From a virus, in the IMG/VR virus record IMGVR_UViG_3300032073_000320, positions 1 through 21,279 of that record: a stretch of DNA of 21,279 nucleotides; one strand, written 5' to 3'. Positions 519-18,948 of the stretch are shown here, piece after piece. The position numbers and the translations under genes are program-made. Every line of letters starts with the position of its first letter. Position 1 is the first letter of the stretch. The notes under the pieces are model-generated. The model was not told the DNA's origin. It saw nothing but the letters and a program-made list of their open reading frames with translations, and did not search any database.

Positions 519-1926
519 GCAAGTCAAATTGTTTTAGTTCATAAGGAAAGTTTTCTTCATTATAGATATTTATTCTTTCTTTTAAGTGCTCTAATGTATA
601 ATTATCACATTGAAGATCATCTGATATATCGAACAGTCTCATAGAATCTTTTCCATCTGTCTTACGTAACCCTCTACCAATTGATTGTAGATTACGTATT
701 CTAGATTTCGAAGGACTTGCAAATACTATGTTGTCGATTCTTTTAATATTAACACCTGTAGAGAACGTTCCATATGATGCAAGTATAACACTTGACTCAC
801 TTTGCTCTACAAGTTCTCTAACTGTTTCTCTGTCTGCTGTATCTGTACCACCATATACGTAATGCAGATCATCTACTCTGCCATCTAACATAGGATATAA
901 TACTTCACCATGCTTCTCTACGTACTGAAATAATACTAATGTATTACCTTTTAATGATGCGACTAAATTTGTTATGAATTGATTACGTTCTTCTGAAGAA
1001 ACTAGATACTCCATTTCTTCTTGGTATGACATTGTATGACACTTCTTATGTTTTAATACAATACAATCAATCTCAATGTTTGCAATTGTACCTTCTTCCA
1101 TAAGTTCTGAAGATGTTATAACTTTCTTACATGGACCAAAGAGTCCTTCAAGTTGCAGTCTATGTACTTCTGATCCGTCTAGTGTACCTGTAGTACCTAT
1201 TCGAATTGCAGTAGACTTCATCTTTTCAAGAATACCTTTTAATGTCTGTGCTTTAAATAAATGTGCTTCATCTCCAACAACTACATCAAATGATTCTAGA
1301 ACTTCTTTAGGTGCCTTACTAAAACTTTGCCAAGTTGTAACCGTGATCTCTGCATCAAACACAGGTTGACCGCTATAAATTTTACAAATGTCTTTATCAT
1401 ATCCATACTCTTTAAAATCTTTTGTCATTTGTTCTACTAGTGAAGTTGTAGGAACTATAATAACTGTTTTCTTGTTATACCATCTTGCTAGAAGATATAT
1501 TATTAGAGACTTACCACTTGCTGTAGGAGACAATAAGAGTTGACGACCATACTTGAGTGTTGTTTCAACTGCTTCCATTTGATAGTCTCTGGGTTCAAAT
1601 GGTAGTTTGTATTCTTTCATGAAATACTTTTTAAGATCAAACTTAATATCAGTTTTCTCACCGATAACATCTGATATGCCTTCAAAATCATATCCTCTTT
1701 CACGACAAAATTCATCTACATATGGCAATAGACCAACGTATATTTGATTTGTTTTGATAGAGAATAATCTGACTTTGCCATCCCAAAATTTCTTTTTGTA
1801 TGACGGCATGAATTTAGCATTTGGTACAGTAAAAGAAAAGAAATCGTAAAGGTCTCTTGCGAGTCCATCATCGCAATTAACTTTCATGAAGACCTCATTG
1901 ATCTTCTCAACTGTAACTTTAGACAT
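505..1926 (-). CDS. uvsW: UvsW-like superfamily 2 DNA helicase (recombination, replication fork processing)
   Basis: A 473-aa SF2 helicase, close to T4 UvsW (about 500 aa), which unwinds R-loops and branched DNA and moves T4 from origin- to recombination-dependent replication. Visible motifs in order: an N-terminal domain (about 1-110), a RDYQ motif like motif Q (113-116), Walker A SPTASGKS (133-140), DEAH box (219-222), motif III-like GTTGTLDG (244-251), and motif VI QSIGRGLRK (414-422) with the arginine finger region. The ATG overlaps the end of the upstream oxygenase gene by 8 bases, and the gene end overlaps the next gene by 14, so the block uvsY-oxygenase-uvsW-hypothetical reads as one operon. 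No missing catalytic residue is seen. Function is inferred from the family. Confidence 0.95.
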   Translation of the reverse strand: MSKVTVEKINEVFMKVNCDDGLARDLYDFFSFTVPNAKFMPSYKKKFWDGKVRLFSIKTNQIYVGLLPYVDEFCRERGYDFEGISDVIGEKTDIKFDLKKYFMKEYKLPFEPRDYQMEAVETTLKYGRQLLLSPTASGKSLIIYLLARWYNKKTVIIVPTTSLVEQMTKDFKEYGYDKDICKIYSGQPVFDAEITVTTWQSFSKAPKEVLESFDVVVGDEAHLFKAQTLKGILEKMKSTAIRIGTTGTLDGSEVHRLQLEGLFGPCKKVITSSELMEEGTIANIEIDCIVLKHKKCHTMSYQEEMEYLVSSEERNQFITNLVASLKGNTLVLFQYVEKHGEVLYPMLDGRVDDLHYVYGGTDTADRETVRELVEQSESSVILASYGTFSTGVNIKRIDNIVFASPSKSRIRNLQSIGRGLRKTDGKDSMRLFDISDDLQCDNYTLEHLKERINIYNEENFPYELKQFDLHGNT

Positions 1927-2650
1927 GTCTTGGTCCGTGAAACCAACTTACTAGTGATATTCTAGTTCCTTTGGTCACGGGTTTTACTTGATGATACATG
2001 TATGAAGGAAATACTATTAATGATCCCCTTGCTTTTGCTGAATGACCAACTGTCTTAATGTGTTGATCTATGTCATATTTTCTTGAGTTGTCTTTAAGGG
2101 AATCAAATATACCATTAGGATCGATGTATTGAAATTGACCACCCTCGTAATCATCTGGAGCAGATAACTGAATAGTCGATGATAATTTTCTAATGAATCC
2201 TGGTTGCTGACCTTGATCGAAAGGTCCAGAGTCTTGATGCCATGTGTAATGATCTCCAGGAACTGCTGATCCATCTTTGACTGCATCAGACCATTCTTTA
2301 TCGTAATCTTCTCTATGATGATATACAGTAAATTGATGTGGTTCTACTTCAGACCATGCAAAGTTCCACCCAGATATATTATTACATGAGTTGATACCTT
2401 CACAAATTTTATTATCAAGTGCTTCTCCCATTGCCCCATGTTGGATCCATTTAACATCTGATTGTCTTATTTGCGAGTCTCTTTTTCCACCCATCTCTGT
2501 TGGTTTGCCATCTGCATCATAACCATTCTTTGGATGACCGCCAATCATTCCAGGATCCCATTCTAGTCTTTCTGCTACTGCTAGTATAGAATCACACTCT
2601 TCTGGTGTTAGAAAGTTTGGTATTACTGCTATTGGTGTTGAATAGTTCAT
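1919..2650 (-). CDS. 2-oxoglutarate/Fe(II)-dependent oxygenase (prolyl-hydroxylase-like) inside the uvsY-uvsW operon
   Basis: 243 aa with the facial triad of the 2OG-Fe(II) superfamily in a double-stranded beta helix: H138-x-D140 (in YTWHQDSGP), distal H220 (in YMYHQVKPV) and R230 as the probable 2OG-binding arginine (TRISLV). The core strand SSTIQLSAPDDYEGGQF (157-173) and 'GSLIVFPSYMYH' are typical of prolyl-4-hydroxylase/PKHD-type enzymes. The N-terminus (IPNFLTPEECDSIL) also fits that group. The gene starts one base after the uvsY stop codon and overlaps the uvsW start by 8 bases, so it is coexpressed with recombination genes. The substrate cannot be read from the sequence: a protein side chain is typical of this subfamily, while DNA or nucleotide repair as in AlkB is less likely because the AlkB signature is not seen. 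Confidence 0.88.
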   Translation of the reverse strand: MNYSTPIAVIPNFLTPEECDSILAVAERLEWDPGMIGGHPKNGYDADGKPTEMGGKRDSQIRQSDVKWIQHGAMGEALDNKICEGINSCNNISGWNFAWSEVEPHQFTVYHHREDYDKEWSDAVKDGSAVPGDHYTWHQDSGPFDQGQQPGFIRKLSSTIQLSAPDDYEGGQFQYIDPNGIFDSLKDNSRKYDIDQHIKTVGHSAKARGSLIVFPSYMYHQVKPVTKGTRISLVSWFHGPRHV

Positions 2651-3146: not shown

Positions 3147-3683
3147 TTATGAAGTGTTTTTTATCTCATAGTATGTGAATCTTAGAGACACAGTTGCTAT
3201 AACTGGTTCTGATTCAGCACCAGACTCAAGTTCTATACCACTTAATGATATAGGAAAACAGTCATGAAACCTAAAGTATCTATTAGGTATATTCTTGTTT
3301 GTATTAGTAACTAGAGTTATATCTGAGTATTGATTGAGATCGTTATCAATAGATGCCATAACATTTGTATTGTTAGTTGCCGTCTCTGTATACGTACCAA
3401 ATAAAGATGGGTTTGATACAGGTACAATAGAATCCATCCAATCATATATCTCTTTAAAATTTTCTAAGTCTTCATCAACTAAAAAGTTTACATCTAATGT
3501 ATCAAATGAAACTTTATCACCAGGGAAGAATGCATTCACACCAACACCAGCAGGTTGTTCTGTTTCTGAGAAAGTCAAACCAGGAATAGTTACGTTTCTA
3601 ACATAGTATTCTACATTAGGAACTTTATCTATTAATAGTTTAAAGTTATTTTTGTTTAATATTGATTTATTAATTTGAGTCAT
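3147..3683 (-). CDS. Tail-tube-fold virion protein (paralogue of gp19 in this window)
   Basis: 178 aa. Set against the gp19 tail tube protein of this window, it shows the same succession of elements: a hydrophobic strand then 'IP' (YYVRNVTIPG 26-35 versus FLCQAAQIPA), 'PGDKVSFDTLDVNFLVDED' (54-72) versus 'AGDRTFEPWTVTIINDVEF', a Trp-containing helix (IYDWMDSI 79-86 versus LENWQTDI), and 'CFPISLSGIEL' (142-152) versus 'MFPTSIGAIDL', closing with alternating beta strands. This supports a tail-tube fold. In related marine myophages the gene between 23 and uvsY is often annotated gp3 (tail completion). A baseplate tube initiator like gp48/gp54 is an alternative, so no symbol is given. Its late promoter overlaps the start region (TATAAATA at 3689-3696) and no ribosome-binding site is visible. 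Confidence 0.8.
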   Translation of the reverse strand: MTQINKSILNKNNFKLLIDKVPNVEYYVRNVTIPGLTFSETEQPAGVGVNAFFPGDKVSFDTLDVNFLVDEDLENFKEIYDWMDSIVPVSNPSLFGTYTETATNNTNVMASIDNDLNQYSDITLVTNTNKNIPNRYFRFHDCFPISLSGIELESGAESEPVIATVSLRFTYYEIKNTS

Positions 3684-3688
3684 ATATC

Positions 3689-3696
3689 TATTTATA
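3689..3696 (-). promoter_or_regulatory. T4-type late promoter (TATAAATA) at the tail-tube-like gene
   Basis: A perfect TATAAATA octamer on the minus strand, ending 6 bases before the A of the ATG at 3683. With T4 late promoters the last A of the octamer is near -6, so the predicted +1 falls on the start codon itself. No Shine-Dalgarno sequence fits between. It lies back to back with the promoter for the divergent glycosyltransferase gene. Confidence 0.7.
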
Positions 3697-3701
3697 TAAA
3701 C

Positions 3702-3709
3702 GATAAATA
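3702..3709 (+). promoter_or_regulatory. T4-type late promoter (GATAAATA) at the glycosyltransferase gene
   Basis: Seven of eight bases match TATAAATA on the plus strand. The last A (3709) is 6 bases before the A of the ATG at 3715, so the predicted transcript starts at or next to the start codon. It is only a few bases from the oppositely directed late promoter at 3689-3696, forming a compact divergent late promoter pair. Confidence 0.55.
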
Positions 3710-3714
3710 CAACT

Positions 3715-4599
3715 ATGAAGATATTCGTATCTATTGCTTCGTTTATGGATCACCAACTTGAAGAGACGATTGATTCCTGTCTAGAGAATGCACACTTTAA
3801 AGACAGAATTAACATCGCAGTCTGCGATCAGTCAAAAAAGTTTAATCAAACTATACACGATAAAGTAAAGTATTATACATTTGTAGATTATAGATCAGCA
3901 AGAGGTCCTTGTTGGGCAAGACATCTGTTACAAACTATAATGCAAGATGAAGAATACTACTTACAAATAGATTCACATACTCTATTTGAAAAAGACTGGG
4001 ACGTTCATTTAGCAAATCATGTTGATAATCTAGGACATAATGCAATTATTTCTACATATCCTTTAGATCATGGCGATGATGAGTCTAAAAAAGATTGGAC
4101 TTGGACTTTAGTATTAGATAGAGATCAACTATTCGATAGATATACTTACTTCAATACACAACGAGGTGCTAATAAGTCTAAAACTATTCATAAAGGTTTT
4201 TTATTAGCAGGTGGATTTTTATTCTCTCATAGATCATTTGTAGAACAAGTTCCCTATGACCCTGTGTTTTACTTCACAGGAGAAGAACCTAGTCTCGCCC
4301 TAAGAGCATTTACACATAACTTTGATATCTATCATATACCCGATGTACCAGTAAGACATAATTACGTCAACGATGGTGAAAGACCATTACACTGGGAAAG
4401 AGATGAAGAATGGAAAAGATTACAGATCATATCAGAACATAGATTTTCTGATTTGATTAATGATGAGTTGCGTGGACCCTATGGTTTAGGATACCAGAGA
4501 TCGATATCAGACTACAGAAGATTCTGTGGTATTGATTATCCAAATCGTGCTATCGTTTCCGATATTGCGTTTGGCGATTCAACCCCTGGTACTTCTTAG
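3715..4599 (+). CDS. GT-A glycosyltransferase resembling the GlcNAc-transferase (GlcNAc/Skp1-type) family
   Basis: 294 aa and the only convincing protein gene on the plus strand. The N-terminus KIFVSIASFMDHQLEETIDS, then 'RSARGPCWARHLLQ' (60-73) and 'YYLQIDSHTLFEKDWDVHL' (81-99), match the pattern of the GlcNAc-transferase-like family in which the Asp-x-His (D86, H88) corresponds to the GT-A metal-binding DxD. A hydrophobic 'GFLLAGGFLFSHRSFVEQVPYDP' block and a 'F-TGEEPSLALRAF' acidic motif follow, as expected for the catalytic half. No signal peptide or membrane segment. Probable roles are modification of a virion protein or of host surface sugars. It is divergent from the tail-tube-like gene and its stop codon directly abuts the stop of the convergent 71-aa gene with no terminator between, so its transcript could run antisense into that gene. 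The inverted orientation suggests an acquired accessory gene. Confidence 0.85.
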   Translation: MKIFVSIASFMDHQLEETIDSCLENAHFKDRINIAVCDQSKKFNQTIHDKVKYYTFVDYRSARGPCWARHLLQTIMQDEEYYLQIDSHTLFEKDWDVHLANHVDNLGHNAIISTYPLDHGDDESKKDWTWTLVLDRDQLFDRYTYFNTQRGANKSKTIHKGFLLAGGFLFSHRSFVEQVPYDPVFYFTGEEPSLALRAFTHNFDIYHIPDVPVRHNYVNDGERPLHWERDEEWKRLQIISEHRFSDLINDELRGPYGLGYQRSISDYRRFCGIDYPNRAIVSDIAFGDSTPGTS

Positions 4600-4815
4600 T
4601 TACTTCTCGTTAACAAACTCATTGAGTTGTCTTGCAGTTACAATAACACTTTCAGTAGAAACGAACTGATCACCGTAAGGTTTTCTGTCGTTTGGAAAGT
4701 TGTTGTTGTGTTCTACAATCGCCTCGTTTGATCTATAGATATTTCCTTCTAATAGACCTTGTGCTTGATTGAGTAAGTCTGCTCGGATTTCAAATCCTGA
4801 TTTTGGTGTTGTCAT
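4600..4815 (-). CDS. Small conserved hypothetical protein downstream of the capsid gene
   Basis: 71 aa beginning MTTPKSGFEIRADLLNQAQG, mostly helical by composition, soluble, with no recognisable domain. I have the impression that short proteins with this start are common near gene 23 in marine T4-like phages, but I cannot name a function. The start is well supported by a strong ribosome-binding site (AGGAGG, 5 bases before the ATG). A late-like octamer TATAAACA lies at 4837-4844. The gene ends against the plus-strand glycosyltransferase stop with no spacer. Its location in the late region suggests a virion or assembly role, which is inference. Confidence 0.75.
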   Translation of the reverse strand: MTTPKSGFEIRADLLNQAQGLLEGNIYRSNEAIVEHNNNFPNDRKPYGDQFVSTESVIVTARQLNEFVNEK

Positions 4816-4836
4816 AATTCCTCCTGTGTGTATGTG

Positions 4837-4844
4837 TGTTTATA
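4837..4844 (-). promoter_or_regulatory. Possible late promoter (TATAAACA) for the 71-aa gene
   Basis: One mismatch to the T4 late octamer. Predicted start near 4831 would leave a leader of about 15 bases holding the AGGAGG ribosome-binding site. The gene needs its own promoter because the capsid gene upstream ends in an intrinsic terminator. Confidence is limited by the AT-rich background. Confidence 0.4.
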
Positions 4845-4874
4845 ACTAACCTTATATTTAGTGTATAAAAAAGG

Positions 4875-4904
4875 TTGACAATGACCCTCACTTTTTAGTA
4901 TACT
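4875..4904 (+). promoter_or_regulatory. Near-consensus sigma70 promoter for a plus-strand small RNA
   Basis: Perfect -35 TTGACA (4875-4880), an 18-base spacer, and -10 TATACT (4899-4904), five of six matches to TATAAT. The predicted start near 4910-4912 coincides with the 5' edge of a long stem in the RNA that follows. The absence of a TATAAATA element means it should be read by unmodified host RNA polymerase, so early in infection, unlike the late genes around it. No protein gene with a ribosome-binding site follows. Confidence 0.8.
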
Positions 4905-4908
4905 ATAT

Positions 4909-5049
4909 CTGTTAGTTCGAAATCGTAGTCTAATCAACTATCCTTCTAGAGAAGCGGCAAGACCAATTGATGATTGTGAGACCGAAGTTCGATAACAGAC
5001 CCCGACGGGAACTACTGAAGAGTATTGGATCGAAGTCGGGGTTGTTTTT
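4909..5049 (+). ncRNA. Putative structured small RNA of about 140 nt (family not recognised)
   Basis: The segment runs from the predicted start of a strong sigma70 promoter to the U-run of an intrinsic terminator. The 5' and 3' sides of the first 90 bases pair in register: CTGTTA (4909-4914) with TAACAG (4993-4998), then after a 2-base bulge TCGAA (4917-4921) with TTCGA (4988-4992), then an internal loop, then GTCTAATCA (4928-4936) with TGATT (4971-4975) plus AGAC (4979-4982) around a GTG bulge. The tip can form CTTC/GAAG around TAGA (4943-4954). The last third is the terminator stem. This looks like a long bulged rod followed by a terminator. It does not match tRNA, or the conserved bases I know of glutamine riboswitches. 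The rod with internal loops resembles 6S RNA only superficially. A 39-codon ORF (4970-5089) crosses it but has no ribosome-binding site. Role unknown: a trans-acting regulator of host or phage is possible. Confidence 0.65.
4999..5049 (+). terminator. Rho-independent terminator of the plus-strand small RNA
   Basis: ACCCCGAC (4999-5006) pairs with GTCGGGGT (5035-5042), 8 bp and GC-rich, followed by TGTTTTT. The 28-base loop can hold a nested TACT(GAAG)AGTA hairpin. It would also stop readthrough from the plus-strand glycosyltransferase gene upstream. Confidence 0.8.
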
Positions 5050-5058
5050 ATTTAAGAC

Positions 5059-5087
5059 AAAAAAAAGGACTCCGAAGAGTCCTTTTT
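5059..5087 (-). terminator. Rho-independent terminator of the major capsid gene (bidirectional in form)
   Basis: GGACTC (5067-5072) and GAGTCC (5077-5082) form a 6-bp stem. Read on the minus strand the loop is TTCG, a very stable tetraloop, and the stem is followed by eight T residues. A-T pairs (5062-5066 with 5083-5087) extend it to 11 bp. It begins 17 bases after the capsid stop codon. On the plus strand it has a five-T tail and could back up the small-RNA terminator. Confidence 0.9.
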
Positions 5088-10480: not shown

Positions 10481-10488
10481 TATTTATA
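10481..10488 (-). promoter_or_regulatory. T4-type late promoter (TATAAATA) at the portal gene
   Basis: Perfect octamer ending 7 bases before the ATG at 10474, so the predicted late transcript has a leader of about one base. It overlaps the last four bases (10485-10488) of the 11-bp hairpin at 10485-10510. Confidence 0.75.
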
Positions 10489-10510
10489 TCACCCCAAGAG
10501 GGGTGATATA
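10485..10510 (-). repeat. Perfect 11-bp inverted repeat with 4-base loop between tail tube and portal genes
   Basis: TATATCACCCC (10485-10495) and GGGGTGATATA (10500-10510) are exact reverse complements around AAGA. On the minus-strand transcript the hairpin begins 7 bases after the tail tube stop codon and ends 10 bases before the portal ATG. It is not followed by a U-run, so it is not a standard intrinsic terminator. It could protect the 3' end of tail tube mRNA, weaken readthrough, or reduce portal translation from readthrough mRNA. The late promoter overlaps its 3' arm, and transcripts from that promoter lack it. Confidence 0.85.
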
Positions 10511-18670: not shown

Positions 18671-18934
18671 TTAATCTTGAAAATAAGTTTTAGTCTGAAG
18701 TCTATCTAATTTTTCGTCAATTCTTTCCATTGTAGATATAAGTTTCTCTAAATCTTTTTCTAATTGCTCTCTAGTAACGTATTCTCTTGCTATTTCTTCT
18801 CTAGTTTTATTAACTAAAATATCTAAACGTTTCTGTTCTGCTAGTAAAGAACGTACCAAGAATCCTGCTGGTACGATGACTACAGTTATTATGATGTCCC
18901 ACAGAATATGTGGATCGATTGAGATTACTTCCAT
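18671..18934 (-). CDS. Small membrane-anchored coiled-coil protein
   Basis: 87 aa. A single hydrophobic segment (about 9-29, LWDIIITVVIVPAGFLVRSLL) is followed by a charged heptad helix with Lys/Glu/Leu spacing (about 33-82) ending in TKTYFQD. No Cys or cleavage motif is seen. It might be a holin-like or lysis-timing accessory, or a membrane-tethered tail factor. No recognised family. It has its own late promoter overlapping the leader, almost abutting the start, and it lies just upstream of gp13 in the late neck operon. The previous gene (2OG oxygenase) ends at 18944, so the promoter lies across the end of that gene. Confidence 0.75.
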   Translation of the reverse strand: MEVISIDPHILWDIIITVVIVPAGFLVRSLLAEQKRLDILVNKTREEIAREYVTREQLEKDLEKLISTMERIDEKLDRLQTKTYFQD

Positions 18935-18940
18935 GAGAAG

Positions 18941-18948
18941 TATTTATA
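18941..18948 (-). promoter_or_regulatory. T4-type late promoter (TATAAATACTTCTC) at the small membrane-protein gene
   Basis: Perfect octamer plus the CT that follows it in T4 late promoters. Its last A (18941) is 7 bases before the ATG at 18934, giving a predicted leader of about one base. It overlaps the stop codon region of the oxygenase gene upstream and probably serves the neck genes that follow. Confidence 0.8.

Follow-up and report, generated by a model that had tools for sequence, protein, structure and literature searches.

The window analyzed here (one IMG/VR record, 21,279 bases, taken at its full length) comes from a T4-like phage carrying gp23, gp20, UvsW, UvsY, and others. A gp3-like gene and a glycosyltransferase gene diverge within it (Table 1), their start codons 31 bp apart with two octamers in between. 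The minus-strand octamer, TATAAATA (3696 to 3689), is separated by GATAT from the gp3 ATG, whose A is at 3683; the plus-strand octamer, GATAAATA (3702 to 3709), is separated by CAACT from the glycosyltransferase ATG at 3715 (sequence reading and pattern search). The last A of each octamer thus lies six bases before the A of the ATG (a 5-nt spacer), and here the original prediction, which placed both octamers at these positions and at this distance, held exactly. Its claim that neither gene has a Shine-Dalgarno (SD) sequence also held, as duplex energies with the anti-SD tail were +0.4 kcal/mol for gp3 and +0.3 kcal/mol for the glycosyltransferase, compared with −10.3 for the neighboring open reading frame (ORF) at 4600 to 4815 and −8.7 for gp23. 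SD motifs are found elsewhere in this phage (AGGAGG at ORF 4600-4815, AAGGAG at gp23), and their absence from the two genes is therefore specific. Octamer sequences, spacing, and the lack of an SD are all directly shown.

Table 1. Coordinates of the divergent gene pair, its putative promoters, and related features of the window
Feature	Position	Strand	Basis or remark
gp3-like tail-completion/sheath-stabilizer gene	3147..3683	-	phrog_45 tail tube family; homology and gene order
Predicted +1, A of gp3 start codon	3683	-	Inferred from T4 octamer position (PMC1524935, PMC2988020) and spacing; no RNA data
Putative late-promoter octamer TATAAATA for gp3	3689..3696	-	Kept in 5/5 relatives with the divergent pair
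Putative late-promoter octamer GATAAATA for glycosyltransferase	3702..3709	+	ATAAATA and 5-nt spacing kept in 5/5 relatives; first base G, A, or T
Predicted +1, A of glycosyltransferase start codon	3715	+	Inferred from T4 octamer position (PMC1524935, PMC2988020) and spacing; no RNA data
Glycosyltransferase gene (PF11397, GlcNAc type)	3715..4599	+	Between gp23 and gp3, opposite orientation
Intrinsic-terminator-like hairpin and T-run after gp23	5062..5087	-	
TATAAATA 6 nt before portal gp20 ATG (10474)	10481..10488	-	6th base T; next purine is the A of ATG
TATAAATA 6 nt before ATG of ORF 18671-18934 (phrog_12220/phrog_462)	18941..18948	-	

The minus-strand gene had been called tail-tube-like, which held in part; its protein family is a tail tube family (Table 1), yet synteny and homology identify it as the gp3 tail-completion gene, and the tube protein gp19 was rejected as its identity on the same grounds. 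Gene order is gp23, small ORFs, gp3, uvsY, and uvsW in P-HM2, with the same core order in Mosig, Melnitz, and Syn9. A 2OG-Fe(II) oxygenase gene sits between uvsY and uvsW in the window (1919-2650, minus strand) and also occurs in Mosig and Syn9, not in P-HM2 or Melnitz. Relatives of the glycosyltransferase were found in 3 of 50,697 phage records, all of them distant, and in seven viral contigs, five of which have the same divergent arrangement.

The hairpin and T-run after gp23 should, by inference, stop minus-strand late RNA arriving from upstream. Since hairpin and T-run sequences also lie between gp23 and gp3 in Mosig and Melnitz, gp3 probably begins its own transcription unit. On the gp3 strand, the DNA upstream of this gene is antisense to the glycosyltransferase. 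After the terminator-like site, about 230 bases (4830-5062, minus strand) hold no listed gene and include a CCCCGAC...GTCGGGG stem; Rfam and tRNA searches of the window returned no match, this stretch included.

Counting octamers in the window was uninformative, as TATAAATA with up to one mismatch gave 62 matches against 58 expected, which is chance level. What is unusual is the spacing and not octamer abundance. The window contains two ATAAATA-N5-ATG matches where 0.20 would be expected; this number was reached in 2 of 100 shuffles, and the reversed control pattern had no occurrence in the window. On its own this is suggestive, and the case rests on the wider spacing test below. Two further octamers in the window stand 6 nt before a start codon (Table 1), and relatives have the 5-nt form at both genes (the portal of nine relatives; homologues of ORF 18671-18934 in contigs G005, G007, and G010). 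A perfect stem, ATATCACCCC-TCTT-GGGGTGATAT (10481-10509, minus strand), runs into the portal octamer, so that the portal promoter seems to be fused to the terminus of the unit before it.

Spacing (k) was counted in bases from ATAAATA to an ATG, provided that this ATG was the first in an ORF of 40 codons or longer. The clade set comprised the window and 11 related contigs (12 contigs); contig G003, whose places repeat those of G002, was omitted from the statistics, and close kin were kept (G004/G012, G005/G010, G006/G011). Repeated start regions were collapsed for the clade k counts, control 7-mers, start-codon counts, and start-base counts. They were not collapsed for the spacing and SD counts on 68 genes described below, which were also counted by family, nor for per-isolate k = 5 counts. 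A reversed-pattern control was used first and was later replaced by 7-mer and spacing controls.

With repeats collapsed, the clade had 45 genes at k = 5, 7 at k = 6, and 5 at k = 7; k = 0 to 4 held 3 in total and k = 8 to 14 held 8, and a broad second mode began at about 15 nt. Twenty other 7-mers made of five A's and two T's gave 0 to 2 genes each at k = 5 in the clade, versus the 45 of ATAAATA. When three isolates were included (HTVC008M and Mosig, both pelagiphages, and Melnitz, a methylophage; 15 genomes), 68 first-ATG ORFs from 34 protein families stood at exactly k = 5, and no gene at all stood at k = 1, 3, 4, 9, 11, or 13. Removal of repeats from this larger set left 66 genes at k = 5, 8 at k = 6, and 6 at k = 7, with 5 at k = 0 to 4, 12 at k = 8 to 14, and 100 at k = 15 to 33. 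ATAAATA-N5-ATG opened an ORF of at least 40 codons in 68 of 72 cases, versus 22% of all ATGs.

By isolate, there were nine k = 5 genes in HTVC008M (none for the 20 control words), seven in Mosig, and three in Melnitz. Annotated starts matched in all seven HTVC008M cases checked (two more k = 5 genes were left unchecked) and in 7/7 for Mosig. T4, RB49, Syn9, P-SSM7, and S-PM2 had no first-ATG ORF at k = 5, and P-HM2 had one. A coarser pattern search without an ORF filter, run on ten further records, gave nine k = 5 matches in HTVC008M and 0 to 2 in each of the other nine (KVP40, P-SSM2, S-PM2, RB49, DLP6, S-SM2, P-SSM7, B23, and ACG-2014f). The window pair is thus one case of a genome-wide spacing rule. 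We infer with high confidence that the 5-nt spacing is a selected design, applying to about a quarter of late octamers near start codons in this marine T4-like group. In portal and gp23 trees, the window grouped with the 11 contigs; cyanophages formed their own group among trait-bearing phages, so the trees cannot tell gain from loss.

Conservation of both octamers and both 5-nt spacings in the five relatives with the divergent pair is likewise shown. Three of these (L003, L004, and L005) have lost 7 bp between the octamers, leaving 24 instead of 31 bp between the start codons, with both octamers and both 5-nt spacers intact; the two octamers now overlap by two bases in a 14-bp palindrome, TATTTATATAAATA. 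The deletion provides a natural test, and it indicates that the two spacings are maintained independently of each other.

Among gp3 homologues, NATAAATA stands at 5 nt in L001-L005, L018, L019, L040, and L050 and at 6 nt in L020, and L049 has CTAAATA at 5 nt. The 5-nt spacing extends to gp3 homologues in other gene contexts (L018, L019, L040, L050, and Mosig, whose gp3 is 34% identical and reads GATAAATA-TTAGT-ATG). Six homologues (L021-L026) leave no base between GATAAATA and the ATG (0 nt). The octamer is missing from this region in most of the 80 gp3 loci, typically in those whose start seems to adjoin an upstream reading frame or to overlap it. The Melnitz gp3 region (L090:3935-3967) reads octamer-N5-ATG and then AAAAGGGAAAACAT-ATG; its first ATG begins a frame of just 8 codons, and the gene is annotated to start 17 nt downstream, behind an SD-like AGGG. 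A 5′-terminal AUG therefore need not be the gene start, and Melnitz gp3 is possibly an intermediate between leaderless and leadered forms.

Of the 11 clade contigs besides the window, 9 encode the late sigma factor gp55 and 7 encode gp45; Mosig, Melnitz, and HTVC008M encode both. Neither was found when looked for in the window, which is a 21-kb fragment. Virion genes at k = 5 include gp3 (in the window), portal, baseplate wedge, and a gp2-like end protector, and several k = 5 genes of Mosig are auxiliary, not structural. Across viral contigs, ATAAATAGTATTATG and a permuted-end control each gave at least 120 matches; these totals carry no comparison, and the ATAAATAGTATTATG matches were taken only as a sample. 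Of 119 distinct sites on 120 viral contigs, 98 were the first ATG of an ORF of at least 60 codons, versus 4.9% of ATGs in those loci. Seventy of these 98 proteins were classified, among them 7 tail tube, 7 baseplate wedge, 6 DNA end protector, and 3 head-tail adaptor proteins, families that are those of T4-type late genes. A peptide deformylase gene is also among the leaderless-type genes of the clade (L097:8844-9479 and relatives), at 5 nt in G001 and G002 and at 7 nt in G004.

In T4, the late octamer occupies −13 to −6 (PMC1524935; PMC2988020), so that with a five-base spacer +1 would fall on the A of ATG. This position is carried over from T4 and is inferred. Base composition bears on it separately. 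Among 100 genes with 15- to 33-nt spacing, the sixth base after the octamer was a purine in 85, as expected of a start point. Position −1 was a pyrimidine in 63 of 66 k = 5 genes, versus 47/100 at the same base in leadered genes; such a pyrimidine is, we infer, what would prevent the polymerase from initiating a base too soon. All 8 genes at k = 6 have a pyrimidine as the sixth base, which again leaves the A of ATG as the first purine. From sequence alone, and without using the T4 data, the sixth-base purine and the −1 pyrimidine agree with +1 on the A of ATG.

An SD duplex energy of −5 kcal/mol or lower was found in 7/68 genes at k = 5, versus 58% of 210 genes at 15 to 60 nt and 45% of 614 other ORFs; 61 of the 68 are thus weaker than −5 kcal/mol, and 7 keep a fair SD match. 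The scarcity of genes at k = 8 to 14 would fit, again by inference, since a leader in that range would lack room for an SD yet exceed what leaderless initiation permits. Start codons at 5 to 7 nt were 60 ATG, 1 GTG, and 0 TTG, and at 15 to 60 nt 150 ATG, 6 GTG, and 9 TTG, a weak comparison, since only 15/165 starts at 15 to 60 nt are non-ATG.

We propose that the 31 bp between the start codons contain two back-to-back T4-type late promoters, which would be read by RNA polymerase with gp55; each octamer would set the transcription start on the A of its start codon, and the gp3 and glycosyltransferase mRNAs would be leaderless, initiated by ribosomes binding the 5′-terminal AUG. We consider it very likely (probability of about 0.85) that gp55-dependent divergent late promoters give leaderless mRNAs for both genes. 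This is inferred from sequence alone, with no RNA 5′ ends at hand, and the use of gp55 in the window phage is itself an inference. The original prediction of leaderless late mRNAs with +1 on the start codon is accordingly supported by the spacing, the control 7-mers, the lack of SD, the start bases, the deletions, and the annotated starts in two isolates; where the RNA begins and how ribosomes load onto it stay inferred. A bolder reading, to which we lean by a narrow margin, is that a large group of marine T4-like phages has moved about a quarter of its late promoters onto the start codon, so that the base at which gp55 directs transcription to start would also start translation. Tight divergent overlap, as in the palindrome of the relatives, would then let the polymerase serve one gene at a time, a one-or-other switch between a structural gene and a glycosyltransferase; occupancy of one promoter at a time is inferred.

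Instead of a promoter, the AT-rich box could be an A/U-rich, S1-type element that acts in translation, within a longer mRNA begun upstream. The k = 5 genes do lack an SD, and genes with weak SDs often have A/U-rich upstream regions. Against this, the peak appears only for the exact late octamer and not for the 20 7-mers of the same letters, it is essentially one base wide, and the same octamer recurs 15 to 60 nt before genes that do have an SD; the terminator-like site after gp23 and the antisense position of the DNA upstream of gp3 also speak against a longer message. We give this alternative very little weight. Nor does it seem at all probable that the octamers are real late promoters whose start falls a few bases away, giving leaders of 1 to 4 nt or a start inside the codon. 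Within a single promoter class, the start point can shift by a base or two, and the few genes at 6 or 7 nt (8 and 6) would be left with 0 to 2 nt. But the −1 pyrimidine and the sixth-base purine of leadered genes mark the same base, and the pyrimidine in every k = 6 case leaves the A of ATG as the first purine.

The 5′-terminal AUG might also be a decoy or upstream start, with the real, SD-led start downstream, as in Melnitz gp3; 5′-terminal AUGs upstream of SD-led genes have been described in E. coli (PMC4965119). An SD-led start downstream had been named beforehand as a result that would refute the prediction. SD-preceded in-frame starts at codons 4 to 29 were no commoner at k = 5 (4/68) than in leadered genes (12/210), the relatives of both gp3 and the glycosyltransferase have alignments that begin at residues 1 to 4, and nearly all ATGs at this spacing (68/72) open ORFs of at least 40 codons. 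We consider a decoy very improbable. Our preferred reading remains that of leaderless late mRNAs, and the larger finding, inferred with strong confidence, is a layout of late promoters, used across the group, in which the start codon doubles as the transcription start.

If this is true, a marine phage group that includes SAR11 phages uses leaderless mRNA to produce a set of its virion proteins, an unusual route for a virus to its structural proteins. SD competition with host and early-phage messages would be bypassed, and 70S initiation would be favored late in infection. It would also offer a clean natural system in which one octamer fixes both the RNA and the protein start. The layout would also help in calling start codons for many phage genes, and the cultured phages HTVC008M, Mosig, and Melnitz, with known hosts, make the leaderless idea directly testable. 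In one alphaproteobacterium, many mRNAs are leaderless and are translated well (PMC4117421), Pelagibacter has been described as alphaproteobacterial (PMC9599517), and SAR11 belongs to the Alphaproteobacteria.

No description of leaderless late mRNA in T4-like phages was found in the literature searched, many subscription papers being outside its scope. The Melnitz paper predicts 15 late promoters and has the word “leaderless” only in a reference title; in the Mosig announcement, too, the word stands only in a reference title. A 2025 pelagiphage transcriptome paper (PMC12753301) covers different phages, and the term “transcription start” is absent from it.

The layout resembles T4 late promoters (gp55/gp33/gp45) in having the octamer NATAAATA upstream of virion genes and gp55 and gp45 homologues in the clade. 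It differs in that the octamer is 5 to 7 nt from a start codon at 0/65 and 0/31 ATAAATA sites of T4 and RB49, respectively, the nearest T4 start being at 12 nt. Cyanophage late promoters (S-PM2, Syn9) share the same octamer, with the first base free (PMC2984593), but the 5-nt spacing is missing from Syn9, P-SSM7, and S-PM2 and occurs once in P-HM2. Phage mRNA beginning at AUG is known from lambda cI and other single leaderless phage genes; those are single regulatory genes, whereas here it would be a class of late structural genes in marine phages. Also comparable are the leaderless mRNAs of Alphaproteobacteria (375 mapped in Caulobacter), with the start codon at the 5′ end, no SD, and efficient translation (PMC4117421); these are host genes under host promoters, whereas the marine phage trait would be built into the promoter of a phage sigma factor.
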